From Gemmatimonadaceae bacterium (lineage in GTDB: Bacteria; Gemmatimonadota; Gemmatimonadetes; Gemmatimonadales; Gemmatimonadaceae), in the NCBI GenBank assembly GCA_030835125.1, contig JAUQWM010000063.1, positions 124,001 through 188,000 of the forward strand: a DNA stretch of 64,000 nucleotides. The letters are read 5' to 3'. How positions within the stretch are numbered: position 1 is the stretch's first letter; each line of letters begins with the position of its first letter. A model generated the notes under the pieces. That model was given only the letters and a program-made list of their open reading frames with translations. It searched no databases and was not told the DNA's origin. Position numbers and translations under genes: made by a program. Below, one piece after another: positions 52,744 to 63,594 of the stretch.

Positions 52744-52771
52744 CCGGGCGCGGAACTCGGCCGCTCCAATG

Positions 52772-52852
52772 GGCGGTTCAATGGCGGTTCAATGGCGGTT
52801 CAATGGGGTCAGACCCCATTGATGGGGATCATCAATGGGTCTGACCCCATTG
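52772..52852. repeat. 11-bp direct repeats running into a long palindrome
   Basis: GGCGGTTCAAT is repeated three times in tandem (52772-52804). It is directly followed by a dyad with arms of about 21 bp (52801-52822 and 52832-52852), each containing TGGGGTCAGACC or its complement, differing by a single base insertion. The flanking CCCCATTGAACCATTGCC (52853-52870) can extend the stem towards the 11-bp repeats. Confidence 0.75.
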
Positions 52853-52942
52853 CCCCATTGAACCATTGCCGCTGACGCTGGCGCGACCCTCGTGCTTCGT
52901 AACGCGCGTCACACCGTATTCCTGCACGCCATCCCGGTCATT

Positions 52943-53151: not shown

Positions 53152-54141
53152 ATGAGTTCCAGCCCAGCCAGAAAACTCGACCCCGCCCCGCCGGCGGCTG
53201 TCGTTGCGCGCCCGGCACCGCCCGCGGCGCGGAAACCCGCGCGCGCCCCGGCGGCGAAGCACGAAACCGCCGCCGCACCCGCACGGCACCTGCTGCTGGC
53301 GGTGATGATGGCGATCCTGATCGGGATCAACGCCATCGGCACCGGCTACTACGCGTCACCCATGGCCGTTCGCGTCAGGCACCCGATGCACGACTGGCTG
53401 CGGCCGTCGGGGTTCATTGGCCAGGGCGCCGGCCTCCTCGCCTTCGCGATCTTCGTCTTCCTCTGGCTCTACCCGCTCCGCAAGCGCGTCAAGGCGCTCG
53501 CCTGGACCGGGTCGGTCGGCCGCTGGCTCGACGTCCACGTCACCGCCGCGCTCACGCTTCCCCTGCTCCTGGCGATCCACGCTGCCTGGCGGTTCGATGG
53601 CGTCATCGGGCTCGGCTACACCGCGATCATGCTGGTCTGCGCGAGCGGCGTCGTGGGGCGCTATCTCTACACCCGCATCCCCCGCGCCCGCTCCGGCGTG
53701 GAGCTCACGCGCGACGAAGTCGGCGCCCAGCGGACCGCCCTCCTCGACCGCATCGCCGCCACCACGGGCCTCGACCGGCAGGTCGTGGACAGCACGCTCC
53801 ACTCGGTGGCGCTCCCCACGTTGCAGGGCGGGGTCGGCCGATCGATGATCGACCTGGTCGCGGGCGACCTGATCCGGTGGAGTCGCGTGCGCACGCTGCG
53901 CCGGCGCTGGGTGACGCTCGCCCCACCGGGACGCCGGCCCTCCAGGCACTCGCTCGACGAGGCGGTCCGGCTTGCGTCGCGCGAGATGGCGCTCGAGCAG
54001 CAGGTCCGGCTGCTCGATGCCACCCACCGCGTGTTCCGCTGGTGGCACGTCGCCCACCGTCCGGTCGCCATGACCGCGCTCATTGCCGTCCTGGTTCACG
54101 TCATCGTCGTGATCGCCGTCGGCGCCACCTGGCTGGGGTGA
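53152..54141 (+). CDS. Polytopic membrane protein with paired histidines (b-type-haem-like), first gene of the electron-transfer operon
   Basis: 329 residues from ATG 53152. A proline/alanine-rich N terminus (SPARKLDPAPPAAVVARPAP) is followed by five hydrophobic helices: 45-67, 85-105, about 120-145, about 150-170 and 305-328. Histidines are placed as for haem ligation: DVHVTAALTLPLLLAIHAAW (two in one helix), then WWHVAHRPVA and LIAVLVHVIVVI in the last. This resembles cytochrome-b561/ferric-reductase-like membrane subunits. It starts the operon whose next gene encodes an NAD(P)-dependent Fe-S flavoprotein 7 bp away, so it may pass electrons through the inner membrane. Haem binding is inference. 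Confidence 0.7.
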   Translation: MSSSPARKLDPAPPAAVVARPAPPAARKPARAPAAKHETAAAPARHLLLAVMMAILIGINAIGTGYYASPMAVRVRHPMHDWLRPSGFIGQGAGLLAFAIFVFLWLYPLRKRVKALAWTGSVGRWLDVHVTAALTLPLLLAIHAAWRFDGVIGLGYTAIMLVCASGVVGRYLYTRIPRARSGVELTRDEVGAQRTALLDRIAATTGLDRQVVDSTLHSVALPTLQGGVGRSMIDLVAGDLIRWSRVRTLRRRWVTLAPPGRRPSRHSLDEAVRLASREMALEQQVRLLDATHRVFRWWHVAHRPVAMTALIAVLVHVIVVIAVGATWLG

Positions 54142-54148
54142 TCGCACG

Positions 54149-55594
54149 ATGAGCATGCTGCTCACCACGGTCGGCTTCCTGCTGCTCACGGCGCTGTTCG
54201 TGATGCGCCACCTGAAGCAGTCCGCACCGACGGACGGCAGCGCACGCCCGGCCGCCGCCGTGAAGACCGCCCCCTGCCCCCGGTGTGCCGCCGCGGTGCC
54301 GCGGGGATCGGCATTCTGCCCGTCGTGCGGGATCCCGCAGCAGGTCTTCGAAGTCGTCGCCGCGAACGCGGTCCGCGACGACGACGCGGGGTCCACGGGA
54401 CGGGCGATGCATGCCGTCGTGCGCGGCGACCAGTGCGTCGGGTGCGGCACGTGCGCGGACGCCTGCCCCGAGCCGGGCGCGATGACGCTCGAGGGGAAGC
54501 TGGCGGTGGTGGACATCGCGTTATGCAAGGGACACGGCGATTGCGTGAGCGCCTGCCCCATCGGCGCCATCTCGCTGAGCACCGGCGCCTCGGTCACGCG
54601 GGTCACCGTGCCGGAGGTCGACGCCAACTTCGAGACCAATGTGCCGGGCCTCTACATCGTCGGCGAACTGGGGGGGCGCGGCCTCATCAAGAACGCCATC
54701 AATGAGGGGAAGATCGCCGTCGAACACGTGGCAAAGATGACGCCGGTGCCGGGCGAGCCCACCGACGAGACGGTCGACGTGATCATCGTCGGCTCCGGAC
54801 CGGCGGGCCTGAGCGCAGGGCTCGAGGCCCTCCGGCGCGGGCTCACCTATCGCGTGCTCGAACAGGGTTCGCTCTCGGACACGGTCCGGAAATACCCGCG
54901 CCGGAAGATCCTCCTGGCGGAGCCGGTGCGCGTGCCGCTGTACGGCGACCTGTGGATCGCCGACGCCTCGAAGGAGACGTTGCTGCAGGTGTGGGAAACG
55001 ATCGTGGCCAACACGGGCCTCGAGGTGCGCACGGGAGAGCGCGTCGAGGGCGTCGTGCGCGATGGCGATGCGTTCACCGTCGGGACCTCCGCGGGCTCGC
55101 ACCGGGCGCGCCGGGTGGTGCTGGCGACCGGGCGGCGGGGAACGCCCCGGAAGCTCGGCGTGCCTGGCGAGGAGGCCGACAAGGTCTTCTATGATATCGT
55201 CGAGATGGAGGCGTTTGCGGGTCGACGCGTCCTGGTGGTTGGCGGTGGGGACAGCGCCATCGAGTCCGCGGTCGGACTCGCCAACCAGGACGGCACCGAG
55301 GTCACCCTCTGTTATCGCGGTGACGCGTTCAGCCGGGTGAAGGAGCGCAACCAGGCCAAGATCGGGGACGCGATCGCCCAGGGCAGGGTCCGGGCGCACT
55401 TCCGCACCGTCGTTCGCGAGATCCGGCCGGACGTGGCGGTGCTGGATGTCGACGGTGAGACCACGATCCTCCCGAACGACGACGTGGTGATCCGCATCGG
55501 CGGCGATGCCCCGTTCGCCTTCCTCGAGCGCCTGGGGGTGCGGATCGTCCAGAAGGACATCCCCCTGGCCCCGGCCGAAGCGAAGGCGGGATGA
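54149..55594 (+). CDS. Flavoprotein oxidoreductase with zinc-ribbon and ferredoxin-like domains
   Basis: 481 residues. A membrane helix (LLTTVGFLLLTALFVM) is at the N terminus, then a zinc ribbon (CPRCAAAVPRGSAFCPSC), a two-cluster ferredoxin segment (CVGCGTCADACPEPGAM; CKGHGDCVSACPIGAI) and a thioredoxin-reductase/YpdA-type FAD/NAD(P) domain (VIIVGSGPAGLSAGLEA; VLVVGGGDSAIESAVGL). In the second ferredoxin motif the second cysteine is histidine (C-x2-H-x2-C-x3-C). It would oxidise NAD(P)H and pass electrons to Fe-S centres and on to the cytochromes. Its stop overlaps the start of the first multihaem gene (ATGA), so the operon is strictly coupled. Confidence 0.85.
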   Translation: MSMLLTTVGFLLLTALFVMRHLKQSAPTDGSARPAAAVKTAPCPRCAAAVPRGSAFCPSCGIPQQVFEVVAANAVRDDDAGSTGRAMHAVVRGDQCVGCGTCADACPEPGAMTLEGKLAVVDIALCKGHGDCVSACPIGAISLSTGASVTRVTVPEVDANFETNVPGLYIVGELGGRGLIKNAINEGKIAVEHVAKMTPVPGEPTDETVDVIIVGSGPAGLSAGLEALRRGLTYRVLEQGSLSDTVRKYPRRKILLAEPVRVPLYGDLWIADASKETLLQVWETIVANTGLEVRTGERVEGVVRDGDAFTVGTSAGSHRARRVVLATGRRGTPRKLGVPGEEADKVFYDIVEMEAFAGRRVLVVGGGDSAIESAVGLANQDGTEVTLCYRGDAFSRVKERNQAKIGDAIAQGRVRAHFRTVVREIRPDVAVLDVDGETTILPNDDVVIRIGGDAPFAFLERLGVRIVQKDIPLAPAEAKAG

Positions 55595-57609
55595 CGCTGG
55601 CGCGGGCGGCGCTCCTGGCCTTCTCGGTGGCCCTCGCGGCCAGCGCATCGCCGGCGGAGCTGCGCGCGCAGATCTCGCCCGGCCCGCTCGCCAGGGCGCA
55701 TGCCCAGCTGGAAGGGGCACTGAACTGCGCGAACTGCCACGGCCCGAAGAAGAGCGCCATGAGCGCGTCGTGCCAGTCGTGCCACCGCGAGATCGGCTGG
55801 CTGGTCGAGCGGAACCGTGGCTATCACGCCACTCGCGAAGCCCGCGCCAGGGACTGCGCCTCGTGCCATCCCGACCACGCGGGGGCCGACTTCGCGTTGA
55901 TCGCATGGCCCGGGGGATCGAAGGAGAAGTTCGACCACCGCAGCGCCGGGTGGGCGCTCGAAGGCGGGCATCGCGAGGTCGAGTGCGAGGAGTGCCACGC
56001 GGTCGAGTACCGCACGTCCGAGGCGGCGACGCTCTCGAAGCGCAAGGTCGGTGCCGGCTGGACCGGCCTGGAGACGACCTGCGCCTCCTGCCATCAGGAT
56101 GACGACGAGCATCGCGGGGCCATCAGGGAGAAGTGCGACGCCTGTCACGACAGCCGCGACTGGAAGCCGGCACCGAAGTTCTCGCACGACAGCACCGACT
56201 ACCCGCTCACCGGCAAGCACGCCGAGGTCGAGTGCAATGAGTGCCACCTGGCGAAGAAGCTCGGGATCCGGACCGACGCGAAGGGGAAGCCGGTGCCCGT
56301 GTACGCACCGGTCCCCTTCCAGACCTGCGCCAGCTGCCACGAAGATCCGCACCGCGGGCGCCTGTCCTCGCGGTGTGCCGACTGTCACAACACGAAGAGC
56401 TTCGAGTCGATCGAGGCGCGGACGTTCAATCACCGCCTGACGAAGTATCCGCTGACGGGACGGCACACACGCGTCTCGTGTGAAGCCTGTCACGGAAAGG
56501 ACCTGGCGAAGCCAAATCCTGCATTTGACAGCTGTGGGAGCTGTCACAGCGATCCGCACCAGGGGAAGGCGGTATTGGCCGGCAAACCTGTCGACTGCGC
56601 TTCCTGTCATCGCGTCGAGGGCTTCACCCCGAGCTCATTCACCGTTGCGCAGCACGCTTCGTCGCCCTACCCACTCGAGGGAAAGCACGCCCAGGTGGCG
56701 TGCGCGAAGTGTCACCCCGCCGTGCCGGCAGCACCCGGCGCGAACGTGGCGCGCGTGACGCGCATCCGCATGCCGTTCAACCGCTGCACGGACTGCCATG
56801 CCGACGAGCATGGCAGCCAGCTCGCGACGCGCGGTGACAAGGGCGCGTGCGAGTCCTGCCACGCCGTGGCCGGGTGGACCCCGAGCACCTTCACGGTCGC
56901 GCAGCACGCAACCCTGCGCCTCAGGCTCGACGGGCGGCACGCCGAGATCCCGTGCGGAGCGTGTCATGCCGCCGAGCGGCCAGGGCTTCCGGTCCCGGCC
57001 CCGGCCGCCTCGTTAGGGAAGGCGCGGGTCGCCGTGACGCTTCCGCGGGCGGCGTGCGCCGACTGCCACGTGGACCCTCACGCCGGGCGCTACGAGCGAC
57101 CGGGACCGACCCGGGTCGAGGGCGGGTGCGCCGCCTGCCACTCGGCGACCCGGTTCCGTCCGTCGCTCATCGATGCCGCGGGGCACGAGCGGTTCACCTT
57201 CAAGCTCCAGGGCGCCCATCGCGCGGTGGGATGCGTCTCGTGCCATGAGGAACTCGGCGCCGTCCCGGCGACGGTGACCCTGGTCCTGTCGGCGAAGGGA
57301 GTGACGCGCTTCCCGGTCGTGGCGCCGCAGGTTCGCACCTGCGCGACCTGCCACCAGAACCCGCACGGCGACCAGTTCGCCTCCCGGCGCGACCAGTCGT
57401 GCGAGTCGTGCCACGGGGAGGATGCGTTCGCCCCCGCACCGCGGTTCGACCACGAGCGGGGCGCGTCCTTCTCGCTGCGTGGCGCCCACGCGAAGGTGCC
57501 GTGTGCGAGCTGTCACGTGCCGAAGCAGGTCGGCGGCGCGCCGATGACCATCTACAAGCCGCTGTCGGGCAAATGCGAGAGCTGTCACGATCGACGGAGC
57601 GCGTCGTGA
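55591..57609 (+). CDS. 23-haem c-type cytochrome
   Basis: 672 residues with an N-terminal signal peptide (LLAFSVALAASASPAELRAQ). I count 23 CxxCH haem-binding motifs, spaced 15-50 residues apart. Repeated blocks of the type FxHxxxxYPLxGKHAEVECxxCH recur along the chain; the partner histidines upstream of each motif (FDHRSAG, FSHDSTD, FNHRLTK) give bis-His ligation. This is the cytochrome c3/c7-like repeat class, exported and matured by the c-type machinery in the periplasm. The first codon overlaps the flavoprotein stop and the last overlaps the start of the 43-haem gene. Role inferred: wire-like electron storage and conduction. Confidence 0.92.
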   Translation: MTLARAALLAFSVALAASASPAELRAQISPGPLARAHAQLEGALNCANCHGPKKSAMSASCQSCHREIGWLVERNRGYHATREARARDCASCHPDHAGADFALIAWPGGSKEKFDHRSAGWALEGGHREVECEECHAVEYRTSEAATLSKRKVGAGWTGLETTCASCHQDDDEHRGAIREKCDACHDSRDWKPAPKFSHDSTDYPLTGKHAEVECNECHLAKKLGIRTDAKGKPVPVYAPVPFQTCASCHEDPHRGRLSSRCADCHNTKSFESIEARTFNHRLTKYPLTGRHTRVSCEACHGKDLAKPNPAFDSCGSCHSDPHQGKAVLAGKPVDCASCHRVEGFTPSSFTVAQHASSPYPLEGKHAQVACAKCHPAVPAAPGANVARVTRIRMPFNRCTDCHADEHGSQLATRGDKGACESCHAVAGWTPSTFTVAQHATLRLRLDGRHAEIPCGACHAAERPGLPVPAPAASLGKARVAVTLPRAACADCHVDPHAGRYERPGPTRVEGGCAACHSATRFRPSLIDAAGHERFTFKLQGAHRAVGCVSCHEELGAVPATVTLVLSAKGVTRFPVVAPQVRTCATCHQNPHGDQFASRRDQSCESCHGEDAFAPAPRFDHERGASFSLRGAHAKVPCASCHVPKQVGGAPMTIYKPLSGKCESCHDRRSAS

Positions 57610-60600
57610 GGCGCGGCCTGGTCGCCCTGGGCCTCGTGGTGGGCGTGGCCAGCGCTGGCCGCGCCCAGCAGGTGACGAACCCGCACGGCCCGCTGGCCGT
57701 GACCTGCGCAACCTGCCATGCCCCCGATGCATGGAAGCCGGTACGCATCGCGACGACCTTCAAGCACGCGCCGGAGACGTTCCCGCTGGAAGGGGCGCAC
57801 GTGCGCACGACCTGCACCGGCTGCCACAAGCAGCTCGACTTCAAGGGCGTGTCGCCCAAGTGCGCCTCGTGCCATGAGGATGTCCACAAGGGGGAACTCG
57901 GCGCGGACTGCGCGCGTTGTCACACGCCGCGGAGCTTCGCCGAGGAGCCGGCGATGAAGCAGGCGCACGAGCTCACCCGTTTTCCCCTGCGCGGCGCGCA
58001 TGCCTCGGCGGACTGCTCGGCGTGCCACACCCCGTCGAGCTCCGGCCGGCTCCAGTTCGTCGCGAAGAGCACGACCTGCGCCGGCTGCCACGCGAGTGAC
58101 GCGAAGGCGGTGACGTTCCCGGATCACCAGGCCGCCGGCTTCTCGCGCGAGTGCACCGCGTGCCATTCCATCAACACCTGGAAGAACCCGCGCTTCGATC
58201 ACGGCCAGACGGCGTTCCCGCTGGTCGGTGCGCACCAGGCGGCGACCTGCGAAGGCTGCCACGCCGACAAGGTCTACAAGGGCAAGGACACCCGCTGCGT
58301 CTCGTGCCACCTGGCCGACTACAACCAGGCGGCCGCGCCGCGCCATGCCGACGGCTTCCCGACGACGTGCACGGATTGCCACGGCAGCACCGCATGGAAG
58401 GGCGCCAGCTTCGATCACGCCAGCAGCACGCGCTTCCCCCTGACCGGTGCGCACCAGGCAACCACATGCGCCGGGTGCCATGCCGACGGTGTCTTCAAGG
58501 GCAAGGCCCTCGAGTGCGCGAGCTGTCACCAGGCCGACTACCAGTCCACGACGCGGCCGGCGCACGGACCAGCGGGATTCGGCACCACGTGCACCGCCTG
58601 CCACACCACCACCGCCTGGCTCGGACAACCCTTCGACCACGGCATGACGCGGTTTGCGCTCACCGGCGCCCATCGTGCCGTCAGCTGCACCAGCTGCCAC
58701 GCCGACAATGTGTACCGGGGGCGCAGCATGGAATGCGCGTCGTGTCACCAGACGGACTTCCAGGCCACGACGAACCCGCCTCATGCCGCGGCCGGTTTCA
58801 CCGCCCCGTGCACCAGCTGCCACACCACCACCGCCTGGGCCGGCGCCACGTTCAACCATGATGCCACGCGCTTCGCGCTGACCGGAACGCACCGCACCAC
58901 CACCTGTGCGGGTTGCCACGCGGACAACGTGTATCGCGGCAAGCCGACCACGTGCGTCTCGTGCCACCGCCCCGACTACGACGCCAGCCAGGCGCCACCG
59001 CACGCGGGATTCCCGGTCGCGTGCGAGTCGTGCCACGCCACCACGACCTGGACCGGCGCGACCTTCGACCACGCACAGACCGACTTCCCTTTGACCGGAA
59101 CGCACCGCACCACCTCGTGCAGCGGCTGCCATTCGGATGGCGTATTCAACGGCAAGCCTGCCGACTGCGCGAGCTGTCATCGCGCCCGTTACGATGCGAC
59201 CACCAACCCTCCGCACGCAGCGGCAGGATATGGCACGAACTGCACGACCTGTCACAACACGACAGCGTGGCTGGGCACGCCGTTCAACCACGCGACCACG
59301 CGGTTCCCGCTGACCGGGGCGCACACCACCGCCACCTGCCAGTCCTGTCATGCCGACGGTGTCTACCGCGGCAAGCCGATGGACTGCTTCTCGTGCCACA
59401 AACCGTCGTACGACGCCACCCGGACACCACCGCACGGTCCGTCGTCGATCGGGACGACGTGCACGAGCTGTCACACCACGGCGACCTGGGTCGGTGGGAC
59501 CTATGATCACTCGGTGACGAGCTTCCCGCTCACCGGCGCGCATCGCGCGTCGACGTGCGCCGGTTGCCACGCGGACGGCGTTTACAACAACAAACCGACG
59601 GACTGCTTCGCCTGTCACCGTCCCGACTACGATGCGACGGCCAATCCGCCGCACGCATCGGCCGGGTACGGCACCACCTGCGCGACCTGCCACAACACCA
59701 ACGCGTGGCTGGGGACGCCGTTCAATCACTCTTCGACCCAGTTCCCGCTCACGGGCGCGCACACCACCGCCACCTGCCAATCCTGCCACGCCGACGGCAT
59801 CTACAAGGGGAAGCCCACCGACTGCGTGTCCTGCCATCGCACGTCATACGACGCCACGCTGCAGCCGCCACACGGCGGGTCGGGCATCGGGACCACCTGC
59901 ACGAACTGCCATACCACGGCGACCTGGGTCGGCGGGACCTACGACCACTCTGTGACGAGCTTCCCGCTCACCGGTGCGCACCGCGCCGCATCGTGCGCGG
60001 GTTGCCATGCGGACGGTGTCTATCGTGGCAAGCCGGCGAGTTGCGTCTCCTGTCACCGGACGGAGTACGACGGCACGACGAACCCGTCCCACGTGGCCAG
60101 CAGCTTCCCCACGACCTGCACCACATGCCACACCACGACGGCGTGGGCCGGCGCGGTGTTCGACCACGGCACCACCGCGTTCCCGCTGACGGGCGCGCAC
60201 CGTGCCGCCACCTGCTCCAACTGCCACGGCGACGGCGTCTACCAGGGCAAGTCCACCGCCTGCCAGAGCTGCCACCAGACGGAGTACGCCGCCACCACGC
60301 AGCCACCGCATGCCGCGTCAGGCATCGGGACGACGTGCACGAGCTGCCACACGACGACGGCGTGGGCGGGCGGCACCTATAACCACTCGACGACCGCCTT
60401 TCCGCTCACGGGTGCGCACACCGCCGTGACGTGCGCCGGCTGTCACTCCGATGGCGTCTATCGGGGCAAGAGCATGGCGTGCGCGTCATGCCACCAGACC
60501 GACTACAACCAGACCACCAACCCGAACCATGCGGCAGCGTCGTTCCCGACGACCTGCTCGAGCTGCCACAGCACCGCGACCTGGATCGGCGCCACCTTCA

Positions 60601-60821
60601 ATCACGACGCCCAGTGGTTCCCGATCTACTCCGGGAAGCACCGCGGCAAGTGGTCCACCTGCGCTACGTGCCACACGTCGCCGACGAACTTCCAGGTCTT
60701 CACCTGCCTGAGCTGCCACGAGCACCGACAGACCGAGATGGACGACAAGCACCGGGGACGGTCCGGGTACAAGTACGACAGCCAGTCCTGCTATGCCTGC
60801 CATCCGCGAGGCACCGACTGA
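57606..60821 (+). CDS. 43-haem giant c-type cytochrome built from three-haem repeats
   Basis: 1071 residues from GTG 57606, overlapping the previous stop as GTGA; in-frame upstream codons have no signal peptide. Signal: GLVALGLVVGVASAGRAQ. I count 43 CxxCH motifs, nearly one per 25 residues. From about residue 200 on, a unit of about 70 residues with three haem motifs repeats about eleven times: CxxCHTTTAWxGxxFxH, FPLTGAHxxxxCxxCHADGVY and CxxCHxxxYDATxxPPH. Conservation between units is very high, suggesting recent duplication. The last part (SGKHRGKWSTCATCHTSPTN onwards) is distinct and caps the repeats. Its stop overlaps the start of the barrel gene (TGATG). Confidence 0.92.
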   Translation: MRRGLVALGLVVGVASAGRAQQVTNPHGPLAVTCATCHAPDAWKPVRIATTFKHAPETFPLEGAHVRTTCTGCHKQLDFKGVSPKCASCHEDVHKGELGADCARCHTPRSFAEEPAMKQAHELTRFPLRGAHASADCSACHTPSSSGRLQFVAKSTTCAGCHASDAKAVTFPDHQAAGFSRECTACHSINTWKNPRFDHGQTAFPLVGAHQAATCEGCHADKVYKGKDTRCVSCHLADYNQAAAPRHADGFPTTCTDCHGSTAWKGASFDHASSTRFPLTGAHQATTCAGCHADGVFKGKALECASCHQADYQSTTRPAHGPAGFGTTCTACHTTTAWLGQPFDHGMTRFALTGAHRAVSCTSCHADNVYRGRSMECASCHQTDFQATTNPPHAAAGFTAPCTSCHTTTAWAGATFNHDATRFALTGTHRTTTCAGCHADNVYRGKPTTCVSCHRPDYDASQAPPHAGFPVACESCHATTTWTGATFDHAQTDFPLTGTHRTTSCSGCHSDGVFNGKPADCASCHRARYDATTNPPHAAAGYGTNCTTCHNTTAWLGTPFNHATTRFPLTGAHTTATCQSCHADGVYRGKPMDCFSCHKPSYDATRTPPHGPSSIGTTCTSCHTTATWVGGTYDHSVTSFPLTGAHRASTCAGCHADGVYNNKPTDCFACHRPDYDATANPPHASAGYGTTCATCHNTNAWLGTPFNHSSTQFPLTGAHTTATCQSCHADGIYKGKPTDCVSCHRTSYDATLQPPHGGSGIGTTCTNCHTTATWVGGTYDHSVTSFPLTGAHRAASCAGCHADGVYRGKPASCVSCHRTEYDGTTNPSHVASSFPTTCTTCHTTTAWAGAVFDHGTTAFPLTGAHRAATCSNCHGDGVYQGKSTACQSCHQTEYAATTQPPHAASGIGTTCTSCHTTTAWAGGTYNHSTTAFPLTGAHTAVTCAGCHSDGVYRGKSMACASCHQTDYNQTTNPNHAAASFPTTCSSCHSTATWIGATFNHDAQWFPIYSGKHRGKWSTCATCHTSPTNFQVFTCLSCHEHRQTEMDDKHRGRSGYKYDSQSCYACHPRGTD

Positions 60822-62407
60822 TGGCCCGGCGCTGGCGCTGGCTGGCGGTCGTGGGATTCCTGGCGCTCCCGGTGCCGGCGCGCGCCCAGGGAGGGAGGAC
60901 ACCGGCCGATACGTCGCGAACGGCATGGACGGTCGTCACCTACGTGACCGGAACCTCGGTGTACATCGACGGCGGCTCCAAGGCGGGCCTGACGGTCGGC
61001 GCGCGGGTCGACGTGGTGCGCCGGGGCACCGTGATCGCCGAGTTGGCGGTCGAGTTCATCTCGTCAACGCGGGCCTCGTCCCGGCTGGTTCGCTCCACCG
61101 AGCTGCCGGTCGTGGGCGACTCGGCGAGGTTCACGCCGGCGGTGGCGCCGAAGGCGCCCGTGGTGGCGGCCGGTGGCGCCGGCGCGATCACGCCATCACG
61201 GTCCCGGTCGACGGGCGCGCTGCGCGGTCGCTTCGGCCTGCGGCACTTCTCGACGAGCTTCTCGTCATCGCCGGGCGGCTCGATCTCCCAGCCAGCGCTC
61301 GATGCGCGGCTGGACGGCCAGATGCTGGGCGGCACGCCGCTGGGCCTCACGGTGGACGTCCGCGCCCACCGCACCCGCCGCGCCGGCGACCCCTCGAGCG
61401 GGAGCACCCGCGTCTACCAGGCGGCCGTCCACCTCGACGGCGCCGCCGGGCCCGGGCGCATAACGATGGGGCGCCAGTTCGCGACCGCGCTCTCCCCCGT
61501 CGGCCTCTTTGACGGGGTCTCGGCCGACTACACCTGGAAGCACACCGGCGCCGGGCTCTTCGCCGGGGCCCAGCCGGACGCAACAGACTTCGGACTCTCC
61601 GGCGACATCCGGGAGTATGGTGCCTGGTTCCGCCTGCACAGTACGCCGGCGGCCCGCGGCTCCTGGTCGCTCACCACCGGCGCGATCGGCTCGTACGCGA
61701 AGGGCGACGTGAACCGCGAGTTCGCCTACCTGCAGGGGCAGTACGTCAACCGCGCCTTCTCGCTCTTCGCCGCGCAGGAAGTGGACTACAACCGCGGATG
61801 GCGGGCGGAGGTCGAGTCGACGACGACGACCCCCACGTCGACCTTCGTGACCGCGCGACTGGCGTTAGGCCCGGCGGTGTCGGTCAATGCCGGCTACGAC
61901 AACCGCCGCAGCGTGCGGTTGTATCGCGACTTCATCAGCCCCGAGCTCGAGTTCGATGACAGCTTCCGCCAGGGCGCGTGGGCGGGGACCCAGGTGTCGC
62001 TCGGCGGCCACTTCCAGGCGGGTTTCGACGCGCGTTCGAGCCGCGGTGGCCCCGGTGGGTCGTCGGAGTCCTGGACCGCCTCGACTGGCCTCACGCGCCT
62101 GACACCGCTCGGACTCGGCGTCCGGGCCCGCGCCACGCGGTATGCGGGGACGATGCTCGAGGGCGAACTCCAGTCGGCGTCGGTGGAGATGCAGCCCGGC
62201 GGGCGGTTCCGGCTGGAGATGAGCGCGGGATCGCGGAAGGACATCCGGCCGCAGGACGGGATGGCCCCCGCAGCGCTACGCTGGCTGGGCGCCGATTTCG
62301 ACACGGGGATCGGGAGGTCGCTGTTCTTTACGCTCTCCACCTACCGGGAGATGGGTCCGGAGGGGCGGATGGTGCAGTACTTCGGGTCGCTGAGCTGGAG
62401 GTTTTGA
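60821..62407 (+). CDS. Outer-membrane beta-barrel protein of the cytochrome operon
   Basis: 528 residues from ATG 60821. Signal peptide MARRWRWLAVVGFLALPVPARA. Residues 30-100 form a small beta domain (TGTSVYIDGGSKAGLTVGAR); the rest is a long series of amphipathic strands with Gly/aromatic-rich turns, ending GRMVQYFGSLSWRF, with the terminal Phe expected for BAM-dependent outer-membrane proteins. A barrel of about 18-22 strands is plausible. In porin-cytochrome conduits (MtrAB-type, PCC) such a barrel sheathes a multihaem cytochrome. The operon position right after the 43-haem gene favours that role, but sequence similarity to MtrB/PioB was not checked. Confidence 0.8.
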   Translation: MARRWRWLAVVGFLALPVPARAQGGRTPADTSRTAWTVVTYVTGTSVYIDGGSKAGLTVGARVDVVRRGTVIAELAVEFISSTRASSRLVRSTELPVVGDSARFTPAVAPKAPVVAAGGAGAITPSRSRSTGALRGRFGLRHFSTSFSSSPGGSISQPALDARLDGQMLGGTPLGLTVDVRAHRTRRAGDPSSGSTRVYQAAVHLDGAAGPGRITMGRQFATALSPVGLFDGVSADYTWKHTGAGLFAGAQPDATDFGLSGDIREYGAWFRLHSTPAARGSWSLTTGAIGSYAKGDVNREFAYLQGQYVNRAFSLFAAQEVDYNRGWRAEVESTTTTPTSTFVTARLALGPAVSVNAGYDNRRSVRLYRDFISPELEFDDSFRQGAWAGTQVSLGGHFQAGFDARSSRGGPGGSSESWTASTGLTRLTPLGLGVRARATRYAGTMLEGELQSASVEMQPGGRFRLEMSAGSRKDIRPQDGMAPAALRWLGADFDTGIGRSLFFTLSTYREMGPEGRMVQYFGSLSWRF

Positions 62408-62535: not shown

Positions 62536-63594
62536 CTACCGATATTCCTCCATCAACTCCTGCAGCCTGAGATTCCCCGGGCACAGCGCCTCGTACGGCA
62601 CCGACGTCAAGGCCGGCTCGATGGTGTTGTTCAGGCCGTGCATGTCGGCGGCGCCCTCCTCCACGAACAGCAGCCCGGTCGCCACCTCGCCGCGGTCGTG
62701 GGCGGCGCGCACGTAGCGGTAGGCCGCCTCGCGATCGGTGGGATCATAGTCGTTCGCCAGGTGCCGGAAGTTGACCGTGCTCCCGTCGTGCATCGTCACC
62801 GACCGGACCACGCCCGGCCCCGCCTCGGGCGTCGCGATCTCGCGGCGCAGCGGGACAAAGTCCACCGGGGCGACCTCGCTGTAGTGCTGCCGCGTGTACA
62901 GGTAGCTCTTGGTGGAGGCCTCGTGGTCGTTGAACGTGACGCAGGGCGAGATCACGTCCACCATCGCGAATCCACCGTGCATCAGGCCGGCCTTCAGGAT
63001 CGGCACCAGTTGCGCCTTGTCACCCGAGAAGCTGCGCGCGACGAACGATGCGCCCAGCGTGAGGGCCAGCAGCACCGGGTCGATCGGCGGCTGCAGGTTC
63101 GCCTCGCCCTTCTTCGACTTCGATCCCACGTCGGCGGACGCCGAGAACTGGCCCTTGGTGAGGCCGTAGACGCCGTTGTTCTCCAGGACGTACAGCATGC
63201 TCACGTTCCGCCGCATGACGTGGCACATCTGGCCCAGCCCGATCGACAGCGAGTCGCCGTCGCCCGAGATGCCGACGTAATACAGCTCCCGGTTGGCGGC
63301 GTTGGCGCCGGTGGCCACCGCCGGCATCCGGCCGTGCACCGAGTTGAACCCGTGCGCCTGGTTGATGAAATACGCTGTCGTCTTCGACGAACAGCCGATG
63401 CCGCTCAGCTTGGCCACCCGGTGCGGTGGGATGTCCAGCTGCCAGAACGCATCGATCAGCGCGGCGGTCACCGAGTCATGGCCGCAACCGGCGCAGAGCG
63501 TCGACATCCCGCCTTCATAGTCGCGCCGGCTCAGTCCCAGCGCGTTCCGCGTGGACGAGGGATGCTGCACCCGGGGCTTCGCGATCGACGTCAT
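62536..63594 (-). CDS. 2-oxoacid:ferredoxin oxidoreductase, beta subunit
   Basis: 352 residues from ATG 63594, overlapping the alpha stop as ATGA. The thiamine-diphosphate motif GDGDSLSIGLGQMCHVMRRN followed by LENNGVYGLTKGQ is clear, and STLCAGCGHDSVTAAL near residue 35 carries the cysteines that help bind a [4Fe-4S] cluster. Together with alpha it oxidises 2-oxoglutarate (or another 2-oxoacid) to the acyl-CoA, reducing ferredoxin. The length of about 350 residues is typical for KorB. The reduced ferredoxin could feed the nearby flavoprotein/cytochrome operon, which is convergent with this gene; that link is speculation. Confidence 0.92.
   Translation of the reverse strand: MTSIAKPRVQHPSSTRNALGLSRRDYEGGMSTLCAGCGHDSVTAALIDAFWQLDIPPHRVAKLSGIGCSSKTTAYFINQAHGFNSVHGRMPAVATGANAANRELYYVGISGDGDSLSIGLGQMCHVMRRNVSMLYVLENNGVYGLTKGQFSASADVGSKSKKGEANLQPPIDPVLLALTLGASFVARSFSGDKAQLVPILKAGLMHGGFAMVDVISPCVTFNDHEASTKSYLYTRQHYSEVAPVDFVPLRREIATPEAGPGVVRSVTMHDGSTVNFRHLANDYDPTDREAAYRYVRAAHDRGEVATGLLFVEEGAADMHGLNNTIEPALTSVPYEALCPGNLRLQELMEEYR

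Follow-up and report, generated by a model that had tools for sequence, protein, structure and literature searches.

A five-gene operon in the genome of a Gemmatimonadaceae bacterium (phylum Gemmatimonadota) raised the question of where the electrons carried by its 66 predicted haems come from, and in which direction they run. The operon occupies positions 53152-62407 of the window, by which we mean the whole 64,000-nucleotide stretch analysed (contig JAUQWM010000063.1, positions 124,001-188,000), and comprises five open reading frames, all on the forward strand, labelled A to E in gene order. Together they probably encode a porin-cytochrome conduit of the kind known as PCC3 plus the enzyme through which electrons enter it, for which we infer NAD(P)H as the donor, outward flow and an acceptor outside the cell. 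An earlier note on this DNA had described five genes with a gap of 7 bp after the first and overlaps of 1-4 nucleotides between the rest, and had counted 66 haems in two cytochromes of 23 and 43. The coordinates bear out this layout (the overlaps are 4, 4 and 1 nucleotides), and exact counts gave 23 CXXCH motifs in C and 43 in D, far above the maxima of 3 and 5, respectively, in shuffled proteins of the same composition. C and D were the only picked open reading frames in the window with CXXCH motifs. A chance neighbourhood was rejected because the gene set stays together across related genomes, and the note's proposal that a conduit and its likely electron-entry enzyme share one operon was supported.

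As described by He et al. (2017; PMC5566968), PCC3 consists of a porin, a periplasmic multihaem cytochrome (MHC), an extracellular MHC and an inner-membrane protein (IMP) of about 300 residues with five transmembrane (TM) helices, recognized by SGXXG on TM4 and WX3HX13H on TM3 and TM5; its function is untested there, and the published hosts are Proteobacteria (Gallionellaceae, Leptothrix). Gene A (53152-54141, ATG start, 329 residues) encodes five predicted TM helices and corresponds to this IMP. Every published motif was present (WX3HX13H twice, and SGXXG), the full set was kept in 74 of 80 relatives, and A matched the profile of proteobacterial IMPs with an hhalign E value of 2.4e-36; this and the other comparison profiles were made from proteobacterial PCC3 loci collected in this analysis. 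C matched the profile of the proteobacterial periplasmic MHCs with an E value of 4.2e-97 over 533 columns and shared their N-cap spacing of 15-16/26-31/40-43. Because A carries all the published IMP features, and both A and C match the proteobacterial profiles, the operon is, on these sequence comparisons, a PCC3-type variant in which the barrel gene is shorter and D has another repeat. An undescribed kind of system was rejected, as PCC3 is already in the literature (PMC5566968). The earlier note had held that, to its author's knowledge, such a pathway was undescribed for the host phylum. In that form the claim is not supported, the kind itself being known; no report of PCC3 in Gemmatimonadota was found in the literature searched.

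The first gene product had been labelled a membrane His-rich protein; it is a membrane protein, but is better named a predicted dihaem b-type cytochrome. The invariant histidines were H129 and H143 on TM3 and H302 and H316 on TM5, with a basic loop of about 125 residues between TM4 and TM5. Since the His pairs lie towards both faces of the membrane, one haem b would be placed near each face. Profile scans of A found no Pfam or NCBIfam family, and Pfam FRD (PF01794) was likewise unmatched.

Gene B (54149-55594, 481 residues) encodes a membrane-anchored Fe-S flavoprotein with an N-terminal helix, two Fe-S motifs, and FAD and NAD(P) domains like those of YpdA and thioredoxin reductase (TrxR). The helix was seen in 91 of 102 relatives, and most of those scored without it are close relatives in which it falls outside the scanned stretch. 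As the helix precedes the Fe-S domain and is followed by basic residues, B is predicted to be a cytoplasmic enzyme. A zinc-ribbon-like CPxC...CPxC after the helix was restricted to close relatives. Ligation of the clusters (B residues 96-137) appears unusual, since an invariant His stands where one Cys would be expected and Ser is frequent where another would: the second motif reads CxxHxxCxxxCP, with the His kept in 79 of 80 relatives, and the second ligand place of the first motif was Cys in 33 and Ser in 34 of the 80. Both the FAD motif and the GGGDSAxE motif of the NAD(P) domain were invariant among relatives, and a single FAD site was recognizable. The closest characterized relatives of B are the disulfide reductases YpdA and TrxR. 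Its flavin domain has neither a CxxC nor a redox-active Cys, and 77 of 80 relatives have Ala in the GxGPCG motif at what we take to be the position of the active Cys of YpdA. Assignment as YpdA, a bacillithiol disulfide reductase, was rejected (TIGR04018 scored 174 bits against a cut-off of 340, with Ala at the active-Cys place), as was a thiol-reductase role, the cysteines being absent.

B and the conduit genes largely occurred together in the genomes sampled. In about ten phyla, relatives of B lay next to PCC3 genes; a scan of 84,980 species, one genome per species, gave matches in Bacteroidota, Rhodothermia, Ignavibacteria, Acidobacteria, Calditrichota, Zixibacteria, Nitrospirota, Nitrospinota, Deltaproteobacteria and many Pseudomonadota. 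Where 5 kb was available on both sides of B, A was present at 39 of 43 loci and an MHC at 40. Among 218 Bacteroidota genomes, A occurred in 19 and B in 18, all within the A set; in the nineteenth, A is a pseudogene with two stop codons (G746:C56:46365-47135) and B had no strict match, an apparent loss of the PCC3 system. Strong A matches were found in 4 of 349 Pseudomonadota genomes and B in the same 4 (one pair on different contigs), with one weak A match lacking B. The 249 genomes of the window's own phylum included 18 with E and 26 with B (39-71% identity), of which 17 were shared, and the lone E genome outside the B set held B-like fragments on short contigs. Nominal co-occurrence p values were 2e-24 in Bacteroidota (without the centre genome), 1.4e-7 in Pseudomonadota and 6e-18 in the own phylum. 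Distances of A and B correlated (Mantel r 0.37, 0 of 2,000 permutations), and the trees of both set most Pseudomonadota apart and joined the window's group with Acidobacteriota. B is thus a near-obligate partner of A.

Most members of the closest family had the genes in the order A-B-C-D-E; in other families B was divergent or followed E. System genes adjoined B in 24 of the 26 own-phylum genomes; the other two (G038, G133) carried B-like genes without MHC genes nearby, and in one member of the closest family (G090) the usual B was replaced by a distant homologue adjoining the operon. The five-gene order was also found in cultured Bacteroidota, among them Emticicia aquatica (L150), with the same 23 + 43 haems, and Emticicia oligotrophica DSM 17448, whose plasmid pEMTOL02 carries the operon with 23 + 40 haems. 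In this survey of other genomes the barrel and cytochromes, rather than turning up only in unrelated contexts, travel together across phyla. Several Bacteroidota encode a large cytochrome c maturation protein (ccsA/ResB) beside the operon (L146:16817-19942, L162:7899-10985), and several Pseudomonadota have, directly after the flavoprotein gene, one that encodes a protein of about 670 residues (L122:11257-13266, L111:7753-9747); both of those tested were ankyrin-repeat proteins.

Gene C (55591-57609, 672 residues) encodes a 23-haem c-type cytochrome with a signal peptide and 29 residues per haem; its 46 Cys and 46 His amount to exactly two of each per haem, with none left over. Gene D (57606-60821, GTG start, 1,071 residues) encodes a 43-haem c-type cytochrome, also with a signal peptide, at 25 residues per haem, and its 86 Cys and 87 His leave 44 distal His for 43 haems. 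By these counts nearly all haems can be bis-His, as expected for electron-transfer haems. D consists of about 12 repeats of 73 residues with three haems each (spacing 16-25-32), framed by an N-cap and a C-cap that recur in relatives. Haem numbers were 17, 20 or 23 in 44 of 50 C-type proteins and 18, 21, 24 or 27 in all 26 proteobacterial periplasmic MHCs, while in 34 of 42 loci with a C-type partner the number in D was 1 mod 3 (p 3e-10; range 10-70); gene ends in this survey came from a simple script, which may account for a few of the deviating counts. The cytochromes are therefore mostly built in three-haem steps, with the inner length nearly fixed and the outer variable. Such a pairing would fit a periplasm-spanning piece with an outward extension, and C is predicted from its sequence to be the periplasmic wire. 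Searches of the PDB with phmmer returned no match for C, D or E.

Gene E (60821-62407, ATG start, 528 residues) is predicted by AlphaFold2 to form a 22-strand outer-membrane beta-barrel (mean predicted local distance difference test score, pLDDT, 80.7) with an N-terminal, all-beta periplasmic domain of about 70 residues. It carries the motif GRQ...G.FDG common to PCC3 porins and matched their profile weakly (E values 1.6e-5, with a probability of 79%, to 1.9e-5). Beyond E lies a convergent gene for the beta subunit of a 2-oxoacid:ferredoxin oxidoreductase (62536-63570, reverse strand); about 130 bp separate its end from the barrel gene. Upstream of the operon, positions 52767-52860 hold short direct repeats of CAATGGCGGTT and an inverted repeat of the GGGGTCAGACCCC type.

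Taken together, these parts would form a continuous path. B, at the cytoplasmic side of the inner membrane, would pass electrons from NAD(P)H to its FAD, through the two Fe-S clusters and on to the haem b of A nearer the cytoplasm. From there they would cross to the haem b nearer the periplasm, as happens in NADPH oxidases and in ferric reductases; A and B would then be an NADPH oxidase-like pair split in two proteins. C would carry the electrons through the periplasm as far as E, the 22-strand barrel, and D would lengthen the wire outward, towards an acceptor that could be mineral, humic or dissolved, or oxygen. We infer that NAD(P)H is the donor, that flow is outward and that the proteins form a complex, as well as where D lies and what finally takes the electrons. 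Several points weigh against this proposal. The surface location that makes D an outer wire is a prediction, and the AlphaFold2 model of C (pLDDT 58.7) was left unused. Structure searches with the E model matched many unrelated barrel families (FimD, OprD-type, TonB receptors) and not specifically MtrB, which was absent among the matches listed, an absence from which we drew no inference. The co-occurrence p values are nominal because related genomes are not independent, and B could run in reverse, reducing NAD(P)+, or use ferredoxin. PCC3 has also been proposed (PMC5566968) to take up electrons and deliver them to the quinone pool in iron oxidizers, and since 2017 it has counted as a putative iron oxidase of such bacteria.

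That uptake role is the strongest competitor of NAD(P)H-driven export, although we consider it unlikely for this operon. D, E and C would import electrons supplied by a donor outside the cell, for example Fe(II), A would deliver them to the quinone pool, and B would be an accessory or would make NAD(P)H by reverse flow. Direct reduction of NAD(P)+ by Fe(II) is strongly uphill, however, and a purely quinone-linked model leaves the near-obligate B unexplained. Iron oxidation is not known from most of the non-proteobacterial PCC3 hosts in this survey, which also counts against uptake. In its favour, uptake was proposed for PCC3 of iron oxidizers, and genomes of Gallionellaceae, Leptothrix-type bacteria and Thiobacillus carry PCC3. 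Yet for Sideroxydans lithotrophicus ES-1 it is reported that both PCC3 clusters were lower on Fe(II) and that the extracellular cytochrome of one of them was undetected on Fe(II)-citrate or magnetite; under the conditions tested, these transcript and proteome data do not support a role of PCC3 in oxidizing Fe(II) or magnetite.

We regard as less probable still a two-way or coupled system, in which B would also exchange electrons with ferredoxin, or bifurcate them, and the wire would serve as a redox-balancing valve. The unusual ligands of its two Fe-S sites (the invariant His, and Ser in many relatives) and the ferredoxin-enzyme gene adjoining the operon in the window point that way, but only one FAD site was recognizable in B, and the neighbouring enzyme, used as a blast reference, was unmatched beside the operon in relatives. 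That B is instead an assembly factor outside the wire, keeping apocytochrome thiols reduced, is very improbable: its kinship with YpdA and TrxR and the ccsA genes beside Bacteroidota loci would suit such a role, but the flavin domain lacks a CxxC and has Ala at the YpdA active-Cys place, the protein is predicted to face the cytoplasm, carries Fe-S clusters and is encoded directly after the dihaem b gene A, and cytochrome c maturation genes are present separately.

NAD(P)H-driven export through A to E is accordingly the reading we favour for this operon. A near-obligate flavoprotein of NAD(P)H type would shift the hypothesis for PCC3 as a whole towards such export, possibly without quinones. 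We hold more tentatively, at slightly less than an even chance, that PCC3 in all its hosts is a five-part NAD(P)H-fed exporter, with the split NADPH oxidase-like pair of B and A feeding a cytochrome wire across the outer membrane and bypassing the quinone pool; if so, the published four-gene, quinone-linked model of iron oxidation would have the donor as well as the direction wrong. New here are the flavoprotein as a near-obligate partner, the five-gene order in Bacteroidota and the three-haem building steps, which offer a structural clue in an inner wire of nearly fixed length and an outer wire that grows by three haems at a time. PCC3 now extends to Gemmatimonadota, Bacteroidota, Acidobacteriota and others, for which the literature searched held no prior description, and cultured hosts such as E. 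oligotrophica DSM 17448 are now known.

The same genome holds a second multihaem cluster (G000:C41, about 10-22 kb; L076:7544-17404), with CcmF/CcmG/CcmH-like genes, an 8-haem cytochrome, a NapC/NirT-anchored 17-haem cytochrome, a 16-haem cytochrome and a probable barrel of 529 residues with a GRQ...YDG motif; this is probably a separate, quinol-linked conduit. On another contig (G000:C12; L075:8931-12654), a pentahaem cytochrome gene is followed by a gene of 1,039 residues, an arrangement resembling alternative complex III.

Among known systems, published PCC3 is the closest, sharing the five-helix IMP with the same motifs, the barrel and a low number of residues per haem (29 and 25 here). 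The 23 and 43 haems of C and D fall within the roughly 21-27 of its periplasmic MHC and 10-85 of its second MHC. It was published as four genes without a named flavoprotein, whereas B lies inside the operon here; no flavoprotein was named in the main-text passages of the PCC3 literature searched. The barrel is also shorter (about 530 residues with a small beta domain, against about 740 and a TPR-like part at the N terminus), and D has three-haem modules in place of the spacing of about 23-24 residues in proteobacterial extracellular MHCs. MtrCAB, MtoAB, PioAB and the OmbB-OmaB-OmcB system of Geobacter likewise combine a barrel with multihaem cytochromes across the outer membrane, but these known systems receive their electrons from a quinol-linked partner in the inner membrane and have far fewer haems. 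Membership of MtrCAB/MtoAB was rejected, C having 23 haems and not ten, and scoring 58 bits against a cut-off of 192 for MtrA/DmsE (TIGR03508). In a 2026 study of metagenome-assembled genomes from caves (PMC13264449), a ferredoxin-NADP+ reductase gene adjoined the genes of PCC group 1 in 7 of 11 cases; this group has a porin of about 20 strands and is centred on large decahaem cytochromes, and the authors draw no link to PCC3. NADPH oxidases and ferric reductases also have two HX13H helices, which in them bind two haems b across the membrane and are fed by a cytoplasmic NAD(P)H-flavin unit; that unit is a fused FNR-type domain there and in the operon would be a separate Fe-S flavoprotein of the YpdA/TrxR fold.

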